NCBI GenBank assembly: GCA_900542565.1
Contig: UQOC01000004.1
Location: 1-64,000 of the forward strand
Reading direction: 5' to 3'
Source: an uncultured Eubacteriales bacterium
Lineage (GTDB): Bacteria > Bacillota > Clostridia > Peptostreptococcales > Anaerovoracaceae
DNA length: 64,000 nt
This document shows positions 21,497 to 30,745 of the stretch, piece by piece. Position 1 is the stretch's first letter, and each line of letters starts with the position of its first letter. The position numbers and the translations under genes were made by a program. Below the pieces are notes generated by a model. The model saw only the letters and a list, made by a program, of their open reading frames with translations. It was not told the DNA's origin and did not search any database.

Positions 21497-23209
21497 TTAA
21501 TTATTGTTTTTCCTTTTAGCTGCCAGCACCGCAAAGGCTCCCATGCAGGATAGCATGATCGTCAATGGTATCCAAAGGTCATTATTATCTGAAGTCTTTG
21601 GGGTCTGTTCGTCTGCTGTCTTTGGGATCACGGTATCTGCTAATGATATCTCATTGTTCCCATCTATGTCACTGTAAAGCTTTCCACATTTGGTACAGGT
21701 GTAATACTCGGTATTGCCTTGCTCTTGGGCGGTTGGCTCTTTGGCTTCTACTTTTACCATGTTGTGGGTATGAGTCAGTTTTGGCGTTACTGTTCCGTCA
21801 GCGATTTTAAGTCCGCAGTCTCTGCACCACACATCGCCTGTATAGCCTTCTTTGTCTTCTGTTGCGGCTATATATCCGCGGATCTCGGTATTGACATGGT
21901 TATCGCTGTCTATCGCACCGTATTCTGTTCCGCAAACGCTGCACTCGGCCTTGGAAACACAGGTTGCCTCGCCACCTTTATGTTTTTCAGTATCAAAGAT
22001 TGCACCGCAAGCACATGTATGCCAGTGATTTTCGGTGTCGGATTCCCATTTATTGTCTGCATCCACATGGACGCCGGTTGCCGGCAATACTTTGCCATCA
22101 GCTATCTTGGTGCCGCAGCCCAGGCAATATGTATCCCCGCTGTAGCCGTCCTGAACACATGTAGCTGCGACGGCACCGCGTATTTCCGTACCGCCGTCAT
22201 GGTTTTCCGCATCAACCGGAATCGTGATGGATTCTATTGTTATGCTGCAAGCTTCGTCGGCATAATATATGCCTGCGCATTTATCACTTGCACATGTCCA
22301 ATATCCGGCGGTTCCTGTCGAGTGGCAGGTGGCCGCCACCTCAGGGTGGAAAGTAACCCCTGTGTGGGTATGCTCCAGTACCGGAATCTCTGTATTTTCG
22401 TTGCGTGTAAATCCGCAGACGGTACATTCTTCATGTTGAAGGCCGGTCTCATCTTCTGTTGCAGGCTTGTCTATCTTCCATGTGAATGTGTGCGAAGCTC
22501 TGGTGCTTTCAATGATCATGCCACACCCATCGTTAACGCATACTTTCCAGTGCTCATCATTGCCGCTTGTCCATTCATCTGCCGGAAGATGTCCCAAAGC
22601 CGTTAATACAAGAGCTTCTTCTGTGGTCTCGTTTTTGTTTTCGTCAAACAGCTTATGGCATACAGAACATTCATAATATGCAGCTTTGCCCTCTGCCTCA
22701 CATTTGGCTGGTACTTCCGGGATGAGATCGCCGTATATATGCTCACTGCATGAAACATTTACCGTTGCGGTCAGACTTGTTTCAGGTGAGACATCGGTGT
22801 TCTCCTCGTTTTGCAGCTGCGGTTCGATCACTATATCCATTGAACCGGCATCTGCCGCATCCTCTTTGGCTCTGAGTGTCAGAGAGAAAATGTCGCCGTT
22901 GATGTCCCGTGCAGTAGCGTAGTTGAATACACCGTGCATCCTTTCGGTATTGAAATCCTGGATCAACGGATTGTCTACCAGCCATTGTCCTGATACAACC
23001 TCAAATACATCTGTATCGAGATTAAAAGCGAGCGCGCCGGCTTTGATAGGTTCTAATCCACTGACAGATACGGTGATAGTGAACATGTCTCCCATCTTCA
23101 CATCATCGGCAGATTTTGTGACGACTATCTGAGCTTCATCTGCAAAAGCAACGCTGAAAGAAGCAAAGACCATAGTCAGGCACAAAATGATCGCAGTTAT
23201 TTTTTTCAT
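21497..23209 (-). CDS. Surface protein with cohesin-like domain and C-terminal anchor
   Basis: The 570-residue protein starts with a signal peptide (about 1-24). Residues 25-150 look like a cohesin: KMGDMFTITVSVSGLEPI, then ALAFNLDTDVFEVVSG and a strand-rich remainder. Residues 150-530 hold five or six cysteine-pair modules (CSVC, CTVCG, CLGCG, CSVCG, CRDCG, CTKCG) common on gut clostridial surface proteins. The tail is PKTSD, a hydrophobic helix and AAKRKNNN, a variant sortase or membrane anchor. It is downstream of two dockerin genes and is their likely docking partner. The cohesin call is from pattern, not alignment. Confidence 0.78.
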   Translation of the reverse strand: MKKITAIILCLTMVFASFSVAFADEAQIVVTKSADDVKMGDMFTITVSVSGLEPIKAGALAFNLDTDVFEVVSGQWLVDNPLIQDFNTERMHGVFNYATARDINGDIFSLTLRAKEDAADAGSMDIVIEPQLQNEENTDVSPETSLTATVNVSCSEHIYGDLIPEVPAKCEAEGKAAYYECSVCHKLFDENKNETTEEALVLTALGHLPADEWTSGNDEHWKVCVNDGCGMIIESTRASHTFTWKIDKPATEDETGLQHEECTVCGFTRNENTEIPVLEHTHTGVTFHPEVAATCHSTGTAGYWTCASDKCAGIYYADEACSITIESITIPVDAENHDGGTEIRGAVAATCVQDGYSGDTYCLGCGTKIADGKVLPATGVHVDADNKWESDTENHWHTCACGAIFDTEKHKGGEATCVSKAECSVCGTEYGAIDSDNHVNTEIRGYIAATEDKEGYTGDVWCRDCGLKIADGTVTPKLTHTHNMVKVEAKEPTAQEQGNTEYYTCTKCGKLYSDIDGNNEISLADTVIPKTADEQTPKTSDNNDLWIPLTIMLSCMGAFAVLAAKRKNNN

Positions 23210-23254
23210 TAGTTCACCTCATTTCGTTTGATTATATTGAAAGATATATGAAAT

Positions 23255-23551
23255 TTATTCTTCCCACATCTTTTGACAATACGGACACTCATCCGCGCTT
23301 GTTGCATATATTTCATCCAATATTTTTTTGATCTGAGCATGAAAAAGTCTATAATCATTATCTTTCGGATGTTCTTTTTTCAGTATACTTGTCGCCTGCG
23401 CATATATCTCCTGCTCATCAATAACAAAATTCCTATACAGAAAATCACTGTGCATTTCGCATCTACCGATCACATTCAATCGCAGCAATATTTCTTCTGC
23501 CAAGTCGTGATAATATTCTTCTTTAGCCATCCAGTCTTTACTCGCACTCAC
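23255..23551 (-). CDS. Hypothetical protein, 98 residues
   Basis: The product is helical and acidic, with a start such as SASKDWMAKEEYYHDLAEEI and a C-terminal cysteine pair (ECPYCQKMWEE). No signal peptide is seen, so it is probably cytoplasmic. The GTG start has GGAGGT seven bases upstream. It lies between the first dockerin-LRR gene and the cohesin gene, 19 and 45 bp from each, so it belongs to the same operon. No family is recognised. Confidence 0.7.
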   Translation of the reverse strand: MSASKDWMAKEEYYHDLAEEILLRLNVIGRCEMHSDFLYRNFVIDEQEIYAQATSILKKEHPKDNDYRLFHAQIKKILDEIYATSADECPYCQKMWEE

Positions 23552-23570
23552 TTAAATCACCTCCTTCTTT

Positions 23571-25892
23571 TCAATTTAGCGGATAGTCATCCGGATAGAA
23601 GACATGGTACAGCAAATATGTTGCGTCATCGCTGGTCACACTGCCGTCTCTATTAAAATCACAATCCTGCCTTAAAGGATAGTCTGACGGGTAGAAAATG
23701 TGATACAGCAAATATGTTGCGTCATCGCTGGTGATGATATTATCTGAATTTGAATCTCCCGGATAATATTCACCTGCCGGTAAAATATGGGTTTCTTTTT
23801 CCTCGCAGATGGAACATATCCTATACTCAAGTCCATCTTCTTCAGACGAAGCAGGTTTTTCTACTATCCAGCTGCCGAAAGTATGACCATTAGGACCTAT
23901 AGTCCTTGTTTCTTCTTCACCGCACTCACATACTCTATACTCTGTTCCGCCTTTAGTACAGGTGGCTGACTCAAGCACCTGCCAGTCAGAAAAAGTATGA
24001 GAATGCTCAGTTAGGTGAACAAAAACCAACATCTCTCGTCCGTCTTTACCCACATCATAATTATATGTAAAGTATGGTATGCTTTCTTCAAAAGTAATAA
24101 TACCTGTTTCAGAATTGAAATCGCCATCGCTTATGAAGCTGATCCTGTCAAAATTATTTGGAGACACCATTTTGCCCATATCGACAGTCCATGCGCCATC
24201 CTTGGCGATGAGGTATTGGGATGGGGAATTTAGACTGCATATTAGATTATTCAATTGATGGTTTTTACTCACATCTAGCTCCGCAAGTTGATTACTTTCA
24301 CAATACAGCCATATTAATTTAGGATTATTACTTACATCTAGCTTAGTCAAATTATTGTCCCCACAATCCAATGTCACCAACTCAGAATTATTACTTACAT
24401 CCAGCTCTATCAATTGATTTCCTCTACAAAACAACCCTACTAATTCTGGATTGTTACTTACATCCAGCTTTGTCAGGTAAGTGTACAAGCAAGTCAGACT
24501 CGATAATCGGGAATTATTACTGACATCCAGCTCTGTTAATTGGTTGTGTTCACAACCCAAGCTTGTTAACTCTGGATTATCACTGACATCCAGCTCTGTT
24601 AATTGGTTATTCCCACACCACACTTCCTCTAATTTGGGATTACCAGTTATATCCAGCTCTGTCAGTAGGTTGTTGTCACAGTGCAAAACCGTTAATTTCA
24701 GATTATCACTGACATCCAGTTCTGTTATTTGATTGTATCTGCAAAGCAAAACCGATAGTTCTGGATTGCTATTTGTATTAATCTCTATCAATTGATTATT
24801 ATCGCATCGCAATTCCGCTAATTTGGGATTACTAGTTATATCAAGCTTTGTAAGTTGATTGTCATAACAGTCTAACCTTGTCAACTCTGGACAATTACTT
24901 ACATCCAGTTTGATAAGTTGATTGCTTCCGCAACTCAAGCTTTCTAATTCTGGTTTATTACTTGCATCCAACTCCGTCAATTTATTATCATAACAAGACA
25001 AACCTATTAATTTTGGACTATTACTTACATTCAGTTCTGTTAATTGATTGTGGTTACAATCCAAGCTTGTTAATGCTGGACAATTACTTGCATCCAGCTC
25101 TGTCAATTTACTTTCATAACAAGACAAACCTATTAATTTTGGACTATTACTTACATCCAGCTTGATAAGTTGATTTCTTTCACAACCCAAGCCTGTTAAC
25201 TCTGGATTATTACTGACATCCAGCTCTGTCAGTTGGTTGCTTCCACAACCCAAGCTTGTTAACTCTGGATTATTACTGACATCCAGCTCTGTCAATTGGT
25301 TATTATCACACATCAAGCTTATTAGCTCTGGATTATTACTGACATTCAGCTCTGTCAATTTATTACGGTAACAAATCAACTCTACTAATTGGGGACAATT
25401 GCTCACATCCAGCTTGGTAAGTTGATTGTTGGAACAGAACAGAGATGTTAATTTCGGATTATTACTTACATCCAACTTTGTCAATTGGTTTCCGTCACAA
25501 TATATACTCTGGATTTTACTAAAAAATTCAATTCCCTCAATACTATGAATTGATGATTCAATTATATAAAATGAATGTACACTATTTATACCATTTTCAG
25601 TGCAGTAACCATTTTCCGTACCAACAAGATTTCCTACATATATCCTAAAATTCTCATCCGGAAAATTATTCTCGCATACATGCAGTTCTCCGTTTTCATT
25701 CACACACGCCGGAACTCCGCTGACTGTTCCCAGCACATGGCCGTCACATGCTTCGGTTGCGCCCAGCTCATCGTTTGCTTCTGCCGCAGAATTGTCTGGA
25801 ACTTTATCAGTGTCAGCAAACGCGCTAAAATTAACACTGAAGGCACTGATCAACAAAGCAACAGACATAAAAATTGATAACATCTTTTTCAT
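23571..25892 (-). CDS. Secreted leucine-rich-repeat protein with type I dockerin (copy 1)
   Basis: The 773-residue protein has a signal peptide (about 1-27) and about 19 tandem 21-residue LRR units (about 120-560) of the form LTELDVSNNPELTSLGCGSNQ with small changes. Two cysteine modules follow (about 629-706: ATCTKGGTEYRVCECGEEET and GLEYRICSICEEKET). A dockerin ends the protein (about 711-773) with two calcium loops, GDSNSDNIITSDDATYLLYH and CDFNRDGSVTSDDATYLLYH. The near identity of LRR units points to recent repeat expansion. It is likely secreted and held by the cohesin protein encoded downstream. Confidence 0.9.
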   Translation of the reverse strand: MKKMLSIFMSVALLISAFSVNFSAFADTDKVPDNSAAEANDELGATEACDGHVLGTVSGVPACVNENGELHVCENNFPDENFRIYVGNLVGTENGYCTENGINSVHSFYIIESSIHSIEGIEFFSKIQSIYCDGNQLTKLDVSNNPKLTSLFCSNNQLTKLDVSNCPQLVELICYRNKLTELNVSNNPELISLMCDNNQLTELDVSNNPELTSLGCGSNQLTELDVSNNPELTGLGCERNQLIKLDVSNSPKLIGLSCYESKLTELDASNCPALTSLDCNHNQLTELNVSNSPKLIGLSCYDNKLTELDASNKPELESLSCGSNQLIKLDVSNCPELTRLDCYDNQLTKLDITSNPKLAELRCDNNQLIEINTNSNPELSVLLCRYNQITELDVSDNLKLTVLHCDNNLLTELDITGNPKLEEVWCGNNQLTELDVSDNPELTSLGCEHNQLTELDVSNNSRLSSLTCLYTYLTKLDVSNNPELVGLFCRGNQLIELDVSNNSELVTLDCGDNNLTKLDVSNNPKLIWLYCESNQLAELDVSKNHQLNNLICSLNSPSQYLIAKDGAWTVDMGKMVSPNNFDRISFISDGDFNSETGIITFEESIPYFTYNYDVGKDGREMLVFVHLTEHSHTFSDWQVLESATCTKGGTEYRVCECGEEETRTIGPNGHTFGSWIVEKPASSEEDGLEYRICSICEEKETHILPAGEYYPGDSNSDNIITSDDATYLLYHIFYPSDYPLRQDCDFNRDGSVTSDDATYLLYHVFYPDDYPLN
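23579..23885. repeat. 307-bp repeat, copy 1 (dockerin-coding)
   Basis: This stretch is nearly identical to 26072-26378. It encodes the last cysteine module and dockerin of the first LRR gene. The high identity against diverged LRR parts implies recent duplication or gene conversion. Confidence 0.92.
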
Positions 25893-25905
25893 TGTAATTC
25901 TCTCT

Positions 25906-26031
25906 CCTAATCCAATAAATCGACTTTTCTTGTATTTTACAGTTGTGTTCAGCTAATTTTGCAAAAACTACTTGAGAGTTCTGATATGTTTTAACACGGA
26001 TATTTTTTATATATGAATTGTGCCATACCAT
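25906..26031 (-). pseudogene. Remnant of a DUF2971-like gene 3' end
   Basis: The minus strand encodes NIRVKTYQNSQVVFAKLAEH and then NCKI, matching the C terminus of the gene at 28769 (NIISVRTHPNSNKEFVKLVEH then DCKM). A one-base loss shifts the frame near the old stop, and no 5' part remains. It sits immediately upstream of the first LRR gene exactly as the intact gene sits upstream of the second, marking a tandem duplication. Confidence 0.82.
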
Positions 26032-26057
26032 TATCTACATTTTTCAAACATCCAAAA

Positions 26058-28754
26058 TCAATTACTGACAAGCGGATAGTCATCCGGATAGAAGACATGG
26101 TACAGTAAATATGTTGCGTCATCGCTGGTCACGCTGCCATCTTTATTGAAATCACAATCCTGCCTTACAGAATAGTCTGACGGGTAGAAAATGTGATACA
26201 GCAAATATGTTGCGTCATCGCTGGTGATGATATTATCTGAATTTGAATCTCCCGGATAATATTCACCTGCCGGTAAAATATGGGTTTCTTTTTCCTCGCA
26301 GATGGAACATATCCTATACTCAAGTCCATCTTCTTCAGACGAAGCAGGTTTTTCTACTATCCAGCTGCCGAAAGTATGCTCTGTTTTGGGGATAGATCTT
26401 GTTATTTCTTCGCCACATATACATACCGTATATTCTTCGCCTTCCTTCGTGCATGTCGGCTGGGTTCTCACTTCCCATTCAGTAGGAAGTATGTGGATAC
26501 AAACCGGCAGATCATACTGCTCGTTTCCTGTGTTGTAATAGTAAGTAAATGCGTCTATGTCTTTGGTGAGAGTCACAATTCCGGTTTGTTTATCAAAATC
26601 TCCATCGGTAACTGCGATAACATTTTCCATTTCATCTTTTGATAAAATAGTATTTAAGTCTATTGTCCACTGCCCGTCTTTTTGTTCTCTTTCCAAATGT
26701 ACTCGCTGTTCTAATTCTGTTGGATAAACGCTCAGATTTTGATTATCACTCAAATCTATCGTCGCTATTTCGTTCCACATAATTCCCAGATAAGAAAGTT
26801 CATTTAATCCGGTCACATCTAACTCTTCTAATTTATTCCATCCGCAATAAAGCTCATTTAATGATGTGCTTTTTTTAACATCTAAATTTGTTAATTCATT
26901 ATTATTACAATAAAGCCCAGTCAGTTGTGTAAGATCTGATGTGTTTAATTCTTTGATCTGGTTATAACCACAATCTAACCAAACTAACGATGATAAATTG
27001 CTGACATCTATCTCACTTAACTGATTATTACTGCAATATATCCGTTCTAATCCATAAAGATTACTAATGTCTATCTCTTTAAGTTCGTTGAAGCTGCATC
27101 TAAGGTCTTTTAACGAAGATAGTGCGCTTACATTAAGTTCTTTTATTTTATTATTACTGCAATATAGCTGTTCCAATGACAATAAATCTTTTACCTCCAG
27201 CTCAGTCAGTTGATTGTCACCGCAGTTCAAATTTATCAGCATGGTTAAACCGGAAATGTCTAATTCCTCTATTTCATTTTCACCACAGTTTAAATTAGTT
27301 AATGAAGTGAGCTTTTCTACATCCAATTTTTCAATCTGGTTAAAGCTGCAATCTAATTCTTTCAACAAAACAAGGTCTTGAATATCAAGGTTATTTAGCT
27401 TATTGTTGCTACAATAAAGGTATTCCAAAGAATACAAATATCCAACATTCAATTCACTTATTAGATTATCATTACAATTTAAGCTTACCAGTGCCTTATT
27501 GTTTTGTATGTCTAATTCACTTATCAAGTTAGAATCACACCATAATGTCGTCAATGACTGTAAATTACTAACATTAAGTTCAACCATTTGATTGCTGCCG
27601 CAAAATAATGCTGTCAACATTGAATTATCAGAAACATCAAGTTTTGATATCGAGTTAAAACCACAATCTAATGACTGCAGTGAGGGAATATTGCTTACAT
27701 CAAGTGATGTCAGCTGATTAAAGCTGCAATGTAAAGCGGTCAAGGCTGTTAAATCACTTGTATCGATTTTTCTTAATTGATTTTCCTGGCAATATAGACT
27801 GTTTAATGATATTAAGCCACTTAGATTTAAATCAGTTAACTGGTTTAACTCACAACTTAACTCCGTTAATGCAGTCAAACCGCTCACATCAAGTGAGGCC
27901 AAATTATTATTGCCGCAATATAATGTTTCTAATGAAGAAAGGTTAGATACATTTATATTTCTCAGTTGATTGTATTCACAAGAAATATTCTGTAAGAATT
28001 CAAGATTGCTTACATCAAGCTCTATTAACTGATTTGAATGGCAGTTTAAGTCTTGTAGTTCGCTGAGGCTACTCAGTTTCAACTCAGATAAGTTGTTAGA
28101 ATGGCAATACAGGGTTTTCAAAGAAATTTGTTTATCGACATCAAGCTCTGTTAATTGATTGAAGCTACAATCTAAATATTCAAGTTTTGTGTCTCCCAAC
28201 TCCAGAGTTGTTAATTTATTGTCGCTGCAAGACAGGCGTTCTAACTTTTCTAACTTGCTTACATCTAATGTCTCAAGTGCATTATAACTACAGCTTAGTT
28301 CTACTAAAGAAGGCAGAGCATTCAAATTTAATTCTGTGAGTGCATTCCCGGCACAATCTAATTTCTTTAATGAGGTGAAATATTCTATACCTTTTAGGCT
28401 GCCTATGCCAGAATAATTCAAATAGAGATATTCTATGTTTTCGCATTCTTGGCTATCCAAATAGCCATTTTCGATGTACTGACTATATTGCTCTTTGATT
28501 TTCTCTCTTAAATTTGTGTCTGGGAAATTATTTTCACATATATGTAGGTCACCGCTTTCATTCACACACGCCGGAACTCTGCTGAAGTTTCCCAGCACAT
28601 GTCCATCACAGGCTTCGGCTGCGCCCAGCTCATCGTTTGCTTCTGCCGCAGAATAATCTGAAAGATCATCAGTGGCAGCAAATGCGCTAAAATTAACACT
28701 CATAACGCCGATTAGCAAAACAACAGACATAAACATTGATAATATTTTTTTCAT
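26058..28754 (-). CDS. Secreted leucine-rich-repeat protein with type I dockerin (copy 2)
   Basis: The 898-residue paralogue has the same signal peptide type (about 1-27) and about 26 LRR units of 21 residues, more varied than in copy 1 (for example LTELSCELNQLTDLNLSGL). One or two cysteine modules follow (about 755-830), then the dockerin (about 831-898). The start ATG 28754 has GGAGAAAG and lies 14 bp after the DUF2971-like stop, so it is in an operon with it. Calcium-dependent binding to a cohesin partner is expected from the family. The LRR surface could bind host or bacterial ligands. Confidence 0.9.
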   Translation of the reverse strand: MKKILSMFMSVVLLIGVMSVNFSAFAATDDLSDYSAAEANDELGAAEACDGHVLGNFSRVPACVNESGDLHICENNFPDTNLREKIKEQYSQYIENGYLDSQECENIEYLYLNYSGIGSLKGIEYFTSLKKLDCAGNALTELNLNALPSLVELSCSYNALETLDVSKLEKLERLSCSDNKLTTLELGDTKLEYLDCSFNQLTELDVDKQISLKTLYCHSNNLSELKLSSLSELQDLNCHSNQLIELDVSNLEFLQNISCEYNQLRNINVSNLSSLETLYCGNNNLASLDVSGLTALTELSCELNQLTDLNLSGLISLNSLYCQENQLRKIDTSDLTALTALHCSFNQLTSLDVSNIPSLQSLDCGFNSISKLDVSDNSMLTALFCGSNQMVELNVSNLQSLTTLWCDSNLISELDIQNNKALVSLNCNDNLISELNVGYLYSLEYLYCSNNKLNNLDIQDLVLLKELDCSFNQIEKLDVEKLTSLTNLNCGENEIEELDISGLTMLINLNCGDNQLTELEVKDLLSLEQLYCSNNKIKELNVSALSSLKDLRCSFNELKEIDISNLYGLERIYCSNNQLSEIDVSNLSSLVWLDCGYNQIKELNTSDLTQLTGLYCNNNELTNLDVKKSTSLNELYCGWNKLEELDVTGLNELSYLGIMWNEIATIDLSDNQNLSVYPTELEQRVHLEREQKDGQWTIDLNTILSKDEMENVIAVTDGDFDKQTGIVTLTKDIDAFTYYYNTGNEQYDLPVCIHILPTEWEVRTQPTCTKEGEEYTVCICGEEITRSIPKTEHTFGSWIVEKPASSEEDGLEYRICSICEEKETHILPAGEYYPGDSNSDNIITSDDATYLLYHIFYPSDYSVRQDCDFNKDGSVTSDDATYLLYHVFYPDDYPLVSN
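26072..26378. repeat. 307-bp repeat, copy 2 (dockerin-coding)
   Basis: Partner of 23579-23885, with the same orientation and a 2,493-bp offset. The two direct repeats could recombine and delete or expand the LRR gene between them. Confidence 0.92.
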
Positions 28755-28768
28755 AACACTTCTTTCTC

Positions 28769-29539
28769 CTAATCCAATAAATCTGACTTTCCTTTGAAAG
28801 CATTATTTATTCCATGCATTTTGCAGTCATGCTCGACTAATTTTACAAACTCTTTATTTGAGTTCGGATGTGTTCTGACGCTTATGATATTGTTTATATC
28901 AAACTTCGCTATTTCATCTTCCGTACCAAGTTCATCGTAGATATTGTTAAAATGCATTATGAGAAAATCCTCCAGAGTATCGCCATGAGCATTGTAGTTC
29001 GCCCCATGATCTTCCGGTATCAGAAAGAGTCTGTGCTCATCCTCGTATGAAAATACCTCTTTTTTAACGCTTAGTGGCACCGATAGTTTTCTCTCATACA
29101 TGGAGAACTGCTCAAACAATGCCTCTAAGTCTACTTTCTCTTTGTAAATTATGTTTCTGTGTTTAAGTCTATTCTCTTCATATGGATAATCATCAAACAC
29201 ACTTGATTTCACACCTACACATACAGAATCTATACAATTCCTATCATTCCATAAAACTAAATCGTCTTCTTTTTTTGTCCAGCATTGGCAGCGAGTTTTA
29301 AGCATGAGTGTGAGCATAACTGCAATACCTGTCCCTAAGCCTCCCTCTGACCATTCCGGATGAATTTTTCTACAGTATTTTACAAGTTCTGTTACTTTTT
29401 CTTTACTACGCATATATCTCAATATTAAAGCTTCAAGCTGATCCGGCCAGTTGCCGGGATATCTGAATATCAATGAATTATATACGAGCATATACCTGAA
29501 CTCTGTATATCGCATATATCTATAAATCATGTCTTTCAT
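28769..29539 (-). CDS. DUF2971-like protein
   Basis: The 256-residue protein begins with YRYMRYTEFRYMLVYNSLIF and carries CQCWTKKEDDLVLW near residue 95, a W-T-x-x-x-D-x-x-L-W segment characteristic of DUF2971. It has no signal peptide, so it is probably cytoplasmic. Function is unknown; family members are seen beside mobile and defence genes. It is the first gene of the operon with the dockerin-LRR genes, and its promoter should lie in 29540-29740. Confidence 0.72.
   Translation of the reverse strand: MKDMIYRYMRYTEFRYMLVYNSLIFRYPGNWPDQLEALILRYMRSKEKVTELVKYCRKIHPEWSEGGLGTGIAVMLTLMLKTRCQCWTKKEDDLVLWNDRNCIDSVCVGVKSSVFDDYPYEENRLKHRNIIYKEKVDLEALFEQFSMYERKLSVPLSVKKEVFSYEDEHRLFLIPEDHGANYNAHGDTLEDFLIMHFNNIYDELGTEDEIAKFDINNIISVRTHPNSNKEFVKLVEHDCKMHGINNAFKGKSDLLD

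Positions 29540-29723: not shown

Positions 29724-30745
<1,022 letters not shown>

Follow-up and report, generated by a model that had tools for sequence, protein, structure and literature searches.

Organization of the locus

The window, i.e., the whole stretch of 64,000 nucleotides that was analysed, carries a cluster of genes whose minus-strand order is a 256-amino-acid gene, a first leucine-rich repeat (LRR) gene, a second LRR gene, a 98-amino-acid gene, and a cohesin gene. The first LRR protein (26058..28754, minus strand, 898 amino acids) has a signal peptide, 26 LRRs of 21 residues, cysteine-rich repeats, and a C-terminal dockerin. The second (23571..25892, minus strand, 773 amino acids) follows the same plan of signal peptide, 21-residue LRRs, cysteine-rich repeats, and C-terminal dockerin. 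The cohesin protein (21497..23209, minus strand, 570 amino acids) combines a signal peptide, a cohesin domain, cysteine-rich repeats, and a C-terminal hydrophobic tail. The initial annotation gave the coordinates and reading frames of these three genes correctly and overlooked the small gene that separates the second LRR gene from the cohesin gene (23255..23551, minus strand). This 98-amino-acid open frame starts with GTG and has a AAGGAGGTG site upstream; its function is unassigned, and tblastn gave no match to it at E ≤1 in the related loci compared up to that stage. Also unassigned is the 256-amino-acid gene (28769-29539, minus strand), which adjoins the first LRR gene on its upstream side and whose product has no significant Pfam family. 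This product gives a short, weak match (E 0.008) to a DUF2971 protein whose gene precedes the LRR-dockerin gene of a related locus, L004; a conserved DUF2971 accessory gene beside the cluster was considered and dropped, as DUF2971 occurred in 1 of 14 genomes.

Could the last four genes form one operon, as originally claimed for three of them? The gaps between them (165, 19, and 45 bases) fit, and a scan that performs near chance level listed no terminator-like site on the minus strand from 28754 to 21497. A single operon of these four genes is thus plausible. A promoter scan of the window was uninformative, with 26 found against 30.0 expected. Outside the cluster, the window contains a SpoIVA gene, which suggests that the DNA comes from a spore former.

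Two further features of the region deserve mention. The two LRR genes (23571-28754) are alike at both ends (84% over 236 bases and 92% over 368 alignment columns) and divergent in their LRR middles, as if cassettes had been swapped or the ends homogenised. Upstream of the cluster lies a gene for a serine recombinase of the resolvase family (29738-30514, minus strand), and six TGTTGGCTTTTT-like boxes of alternating orientation are found at or just upstream of its start (30491-30736), against 0.65 expected; allowing one mismatch, the rest of the window has no such box. Perhaps these boxes are the recombination site of the enzyme.

A single cohesin on an anchor-like protein

Residues 33-152 of the 570-amino-acid protein (22754..23113, minus strand) match Pfam Cohesin (PF00963) with 25.0 bits, marginally above the cut-off of 24.1; a database protein that is 98% identical (P0001) falls just below it, with 23.5 bits. 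The predicted structure of the domain (pLDDT 92.4) has the cohesin beta-sandwich fold, and its first 33 Foldseek rows are all chains of cohesin entries. The search with the cohesin family HMM that the initial annotation had proposed and the structure prediction of the domain by itself both bear out its cohesin-like domain, and the marginal Pfam scores, here and for the dockerins described below, are backed by structure models whose nearest folds are cohesins and dockerins, respectively. By Pfam, and counting within the cluster, there is one cohesin in this protein.

Cohesins are also used outside cellulosomes, as the cohesin modules of Clostridium perfringens illustrate. Cohesins of C. perfringens glycoside hydrolases (2vo8, 2jh2, and 2w1n) are among the closest solved folds to the window cohesin. 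In that organism, however, the cohesin belongs to a glycoside hydrolase (based on the titles of 2vo8 and 2w1n), whereas the window cohesin is carried by an anchor-like protein that has no enzyme domain.

The C terminus of the cohesin protein (21500..21604, minus strand) consists of TPKTSDNND, a hydrophobic stretch, and KRKNNN, with a mean hydropathy of 2.03. This tail resembles a sorting signal or a membrane segment and looks like an anchor, either to the wall or to the membrane. The wall-anchor signal model TIGR01167 scores 14.5 bits, below its cut-off of 15.9. Thus, of the earlier proposal of a membrane- or wall-anchored protein, the anchor-like tail stands, and wall and membrane are not distinguished.

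Two LRR proteins that end in dockerins

Type I dockerins are built from two 12-residue calcium-loop motifs, each followed by a helix. Both loop motifs are visible in both window dockerins, which accordingly have the type I motif, and the earlier statement that each LRR protein ends in a two-loop dockerin is confirmed. The dockerin of the first LRR protein (residues 830-895; 26070..26267, minus strand) scores 23.2 bits with Pfam Dockerin_1 (PF00404; cut-off, 22.9), and that of the second (residues 707-773; 23574..23774, minus strand) scores 21.5 bits, below the cut-off; the latter dockerin is a seed of the subtype profile used below and so matches that profile by construction. An AlphaFold2 model of the first dockerin (pLDDT 89.7) has helices at positions 18-29 and 50-61, and the first 30 rows of its Foldseek search all are chains from dockerin structures, with a best E value of only 0.004. 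A database protein of 533 amino acids (P0015) has nearly the same N terminus as the second LRR protein and, at its very end, half a dockerin with a single loop.

Counted by regular expression, there are 26 and 19 LRR units of 21 residues in the first and second LRR proteins. The arrays are like that of Listeria internalin J, with NF033187 scores of 338 and 314 bits and a match of the first LRR protein to 3bz5 at E 1.5e-46. Unlike internalin J, the window proteins carry a C-terminal dockerin, and both of them score far below the NF033187 cut-off of 1700 bits and so fall outside the internalin J class.

Is there any sign of how these dockerins might bind? In a set of 12 dockerins drawn one from each genome, the halves of a single protein share 79% identity, versus 54% when first and second halves are compared between genomes, a difference reached in 0 of 20,000 permutations. 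At the 11 variable positions, the within-protein identity of the halves is 70%, against a permuted mean of 37%. Such a kept two-fold symmetry is what would be expected of a dockerin that binds in two orientations; the same pattern could arise from repeated duplication of one half.

Adjacency of cohesin and dockerin genes in relatives

A large protein database holds three matches to the window cohesin region at E 0.001 (98, 59, and 33% identity; 512 candidates), and a search from the third of these gave five more at E 0.01. The window and four database proteins supplied an alignment of five cohesin regions, with no dockerin included. A pattern scan with two degenerate peptide patterns, run over one genome for each of 84,980 species and yielding 363 stretches, gave four confirmed relatives (loci L001 to L004), which is a lower bound. 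These loci come from goat, deer, and rumen-type metagenome-assembled genomes, and each of the four cohesin genes from this cohesin-only scan is immediately preceded, on the same strand, by a dockerin gene, the gaps being -20, 12, 15, and 35 bases. Pfam Dockerin_1 gives 29.2 bits for L002 and no match for L001 or L004 at E 0.001; in a genome search, the Pfam dockerin scores are 23.2 bits for L004, above the cut-off, and 21.2 for L003, below it, with the loops plain in the alignment. Within one scanned set of 10 dockerin proteins, Pfam lists Dockerin_1 in only 3 (L002, L061, and L063), and the others are assigned through the subtype profile and the loops seen in the alignment.

Our wider sample comprised 394 genomes from the order of one of the pattern-scan relatives. 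A cohesin profile that still included the signal peptide (A2) was rejected as a measure of the family: it matched 72 of the 394 genomes at 1e-5, many of them through roughly its first 70 positions, i.e., the signal peptide. From the A2 search we retained 18 genomes, those scoring 60 bits or more (a cut chosen after the list was seen), and took 20 regions; adjacency was scored with a profile from which the signal peptide had been removed, at a threshold of 45 bits. There are 19 loci outside the window with an unfused cohesin of at least 45 bits, a count that takes in the first four loci and leaves out the dockerin-fused cohesins in L055, L057, and L062. The dockerin gene is directly upstream of the cohesin gene in 11 of them and directly downstream in 2; of the remainder, one is at the edge of a contig and 5 lack a neighbouring dockerin gene. 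Three loci below 45 bits were dropped, two of which (L067 and L068) have no dockerin in the stretch examined and one of which (L069) has a dockerin in the same protein as its weak cohesin; L070 is a repeat of L001.

Of 18 genomes (a set that includes G002 and leaves out G105), 13 have the cohesin gene and a dockerin gene side by side, against 0.05 expected from dockerin density under uniform gene positions and 950 genes per megabase; these genomes are not independent, as the similar loci of G086 and G222 indicate. Removing the four genomes that seed the dockerin profile leaves 9 of 14. Seven of the upstream genes did not serve as seeds, and the dockerin of each gives an E value of 1e-23 or better with the six-row profile.

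How would the cohesin be held at the cell in these relatives? C termini are complete in 15 of the 19 cohesin proteins, and 12 of those 15 have a hydrophobic tail. Among the 13 loci with an adjacent dockerin gene, the tail is present in 8, the protein is complete but tailless in 3 (L060, L062, and L063), and the C terminus is cut off in 2 (L001 and L052). Since the three tailless proteins are encoded beside dockerin genes, a tail of this kind can explain cell attachment for only some members of the family. In G105, a 1,491-amino-acid protein (L057, 2323-6798) joins a dockerin, the same cohesin subfamily, and three S-layer homology matches, and this fusion is perhaps another way of tethering the same cohesin.

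Co-occurrence of the two subfamilies

A 14-row dockerin profile (A5) was set aside as circular for adjacency, since it contains adjacent dockerins; co-occurrence was scored instead with a six-row profile (A6), whose rows came exclusively from the window and the first four loci, run over the 394 genomes. At 1e-10, the A6 dockerin subtype is matched in 27 genomes, namely 16 of the 18 cohesin genomes versus 11 of the 376 others (Fisher 1.6e-19); with the three profile-seeding genomes removed, the figures are 13 of 15 versus 11 of 376 (Fisher 3.8e-16). In eight genomes (G003, G004, G041, G046, G214, G227, G280, and G339), one strong subtype dockerin was found and it is at the cohesin locus, as scored with A5, which includes these adjacent dockerins; 20 other dockerins elsewhere in G227 match the subtype weakly. 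The exceptions are G189, with 21 dispersed subtype dockerins, G377, with a strong but nonadjacent one, and G236, with weak matches only, and among the best-scored candidates of G114 no subtype dockerin was found. Three genomes (G079, G133, and G322) have at least 15 subtype dockerins each, spread over many contigs, and only weak matches to the cohesin profile.

A second sample, of 376 genomes from the class, contains 6 with the dockerin subtype and 2 with the cohesin subfamily at 1e-10, both of them among those 6. Beyond G004, five of the six remain. Pfam cohesins lie on the dockerin's contig in G465, G564 (where the dockerin is between two cohesin matches), and G593 and not in G689, and no Pfam cohesin was found in G642. 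In the order and class searches alike, the best 9 to 10 candidates per genome were scored for cohesin and the best 15 to 16 for dockerin, which makes absences soft.

In total, the two subfamilies lie side by side and co-occur far more often than expected by chance, and the observed gene pair is real and more widespread than the window alone could tell. The conserved adjacency and the co-occurrence support a role for the cohesin protein as a putative receptor for the LRR-borne dockerins. To this extent the earlier pairing of cohesin with dockerins holds up, with binding itself being what these gene patterns suggest. Might the two not bind each other at all, the cohesin-like domain being a generic beta-sandwich adhesion domain and the dockerins pairing elsewhere? 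The fold is common to proteins that are not cohesins (the CLIPPER domain 9ifr, BcpA 3kpt, and reeler domains), and Ruminococcus albus is described as deficient in cohesins and yet encoding dockerins (PMC4081043). The best structural matches of the window domain are cohesins, however, and neither the adjacency nor the co-occurrence of the subfamilies would be expected on that reading, which we regard as very improbable.

Cargo of the subtype dockerins

What else does this dockerin subtype carry? Our sample was 47 subtype dockerin proteins outside the window, a chosen set, neither random nor exhaustive. LRRs are present in 13 of the 47, and 9 of these 13 are BspA-type. Other cargo includes Ig-like domains, InlB-type repeats, GLUG, GDSL/SASA esterase, transglutaminase-like, metallophosphatase, phosphodiesterase, CHAP, and M23 domains, a WbsX domain (L090), esterase domains (in L003), and cohesin-dockerin proteins (e.g., in L002, L063, and L052); several of the scanned proteins have nothing beyond the dockerin or no family at all. 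Directly beside a cohesin gene are 13 proteins, 12 of which were scanned (all except L058:8612): 4 of the 12 contain LRRs (L001, L003, L004, and L051), and none contains a glycoside hydrolase. Among the relatives, LRRs are accordingly just one of several kinds of cargo.

The initial annotation noted that the locus has no glycoside hydrolase, and by Pfam there is none in the cohesin protein or the two LRR proteins. In the chosen set of 47, 46 proteins have no Pfam glycoside-hydrolase family, and one (P0012) is GH36-like. Thus, the absence of glycoside hydrolases holds for the three window proteins and nearly, but not wholly, for the subtype.

These data bear on whether the locus is a satellite of an ordinary cellulosome, with scaffoldins and glycoside hydrolases elsewhere in the genome and the LRR proteins as accessory subunits, as in Ruminococcus flavefaciens. 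Table 1 of PMC5301203 lists R. flavefaciens LRR-dockerin proteins as binding the cellulosomal cohesins A1 and B3 and names the LRR-dockerin protein ZP_06144651, together with ScaI (LRR-Coh-Doc), as a binder of ScaE. Pfam dockerins of the generic kind occur in 237 of the 394 genomes of the order, and the GH36-like P0012 does bear a subtype dockerin. Against this, the one strong subtype dockerin found in each of the eight related genomes adjoins the cohesin gene, and the cargo of the other 46 proteins is as described above. Within the cluster itself, there is neither a scaffoldin with several cohesins nor a dockerin-bearing glycoside hydrolase. The tailless cohesin proteins and the presence of LRRs in 4 of 12 adjacent partners add weight to the satellite reading, which we nonetheless consider unlikely.

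A model for the display of LRR proteins

We consider it likely that the locus is a small cohesin-dockerin module for the surface display of LRR proteins. In this model, the 570-amino-acid protein would be held at the wall or membrane by its C-terminal tail and would present its one cohesin near the N terminus. The two secreted LRR proteins, in which a dockerin takes the place of the wall anchor that one might expect, would plug this dockerin into the cohesin in a manner that is probably calcium dependent and may allow two binding modes. The LRR solenoids would thereby be kept at the surface, where they could meet their ligands, and would be exchangeable on one tether. We draw here on the domains and folds, the anchor-like tail, the conserved adjacency, the co-occurrence, and the two-fold dockerin symmetry, all of them computed. 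Our confidence is lower than it would otherwise be given the three complete cohesin proteins that lie beside dockerin genes and have no visible tail, and given that only 4 of 12 adjacent partners contain LRRs.

Are the displayed proteins adhesins? Both the internalin J family and the BspA-type LRR families include known adhesins. The resemblance of the window LRRs to internalin J, along with the nine BspA-type proteins among the 13 relatives with LRRs, suggests that the window proteins may be adhesins as well. Alternatively, display could occur as proposed and the LRR proteins could be structural or scavenging parts, in keeping with the transglutaminase-like, GDSL/SASA esterase, phosphodiesterase, metallophosphatase, M23, and CHAP domains of the related cargo. 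We give this alternative, which is compatible with the display module, appreciable though less than even credence.

Relation to known cohesin-dockerin systems

The pairing of cohesins with dockerins is known mainly from complexes that degrade fibre and starch. The closest parallel to the display module is ScaE of R. flavefaciens, a sortase-anchored surface protein with, likewise, a single cohesin, to which LRR proteins bind through dockerins (PMC5301203); in the window such binding is what we propose, and the likeness drawn here is one of architecture. Unlike the window cluster, ScaE also anchors ScaB and CttA, i.e., a cellulosome and a cellulose-binding protein, and the available text of PMC5301203 describes no LRR-dedicated operon. 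Dockerin proteins of that strain contain 28 LRR modules (PMC2930009), and according to PMC5301203, most LRR-borne dockerins gave no interaction with the cohesins tested. In the amylosome of Ruminococcus bromii, the scaffoldin Sca5, which has a sortase signal, similarly holds the starch-binding protein Sas20 by its dockerin; this system differs in its starch-directed cargo and in the two cohesins on Sca5 (PMC9112005).

The listing of an LRR-dockerin protein for ScaE means that LRR display by a surface cohesin already has a precedent, within a cellulosome. Among the literature matches listed (titles and abstract starts of open-licence papers only), no LRR-dedicated cohesin-dockerin operon is described. 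The earlier suggestion of a new surface-assembly system thus survives in part: the principle is that of ScaE (PMC5301203), and what is new to us is a small stand-alone cluster, plausibly one operon, without glycoside hydrolases or other cellulosomal enzymes, with its own cohesin and dockerin subfamily, that recurs in rumen and gut Clostridia.

Implications

Parts known from cellulose-degrading machines may also hold quite different proteins at the cell surface. Taking the relatives together, we lean, by a little, toward the broader proposal that rumen and gut Clostridia possess a stand-alone, noncellulosomal "adhesosome" built on a separate cohesin/dockerin subfamily. In such a system, a tethered receptor with a single cohesin would show exchangeable LRR, Ig-like, and InlB-repeat proteins, small cohesin-dockerin proteins would serve as adaptors in some genomes, and receptor and plug would be encoded side by side and evolve as specific pairs. 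The one-to-one gene pairs in eight genomes are ready sets for testing this specificity. If the proposal is true, it would also hint at where to seek the partners of those R. flavefaciens LRR-dockerins that bound no tested cohesin. And if the chief use of one subfamily is to attach LRR and other surface proteins to the cell, these bacteria would be able to change their surface in a modular and reversible way, without an anchor for each protein.
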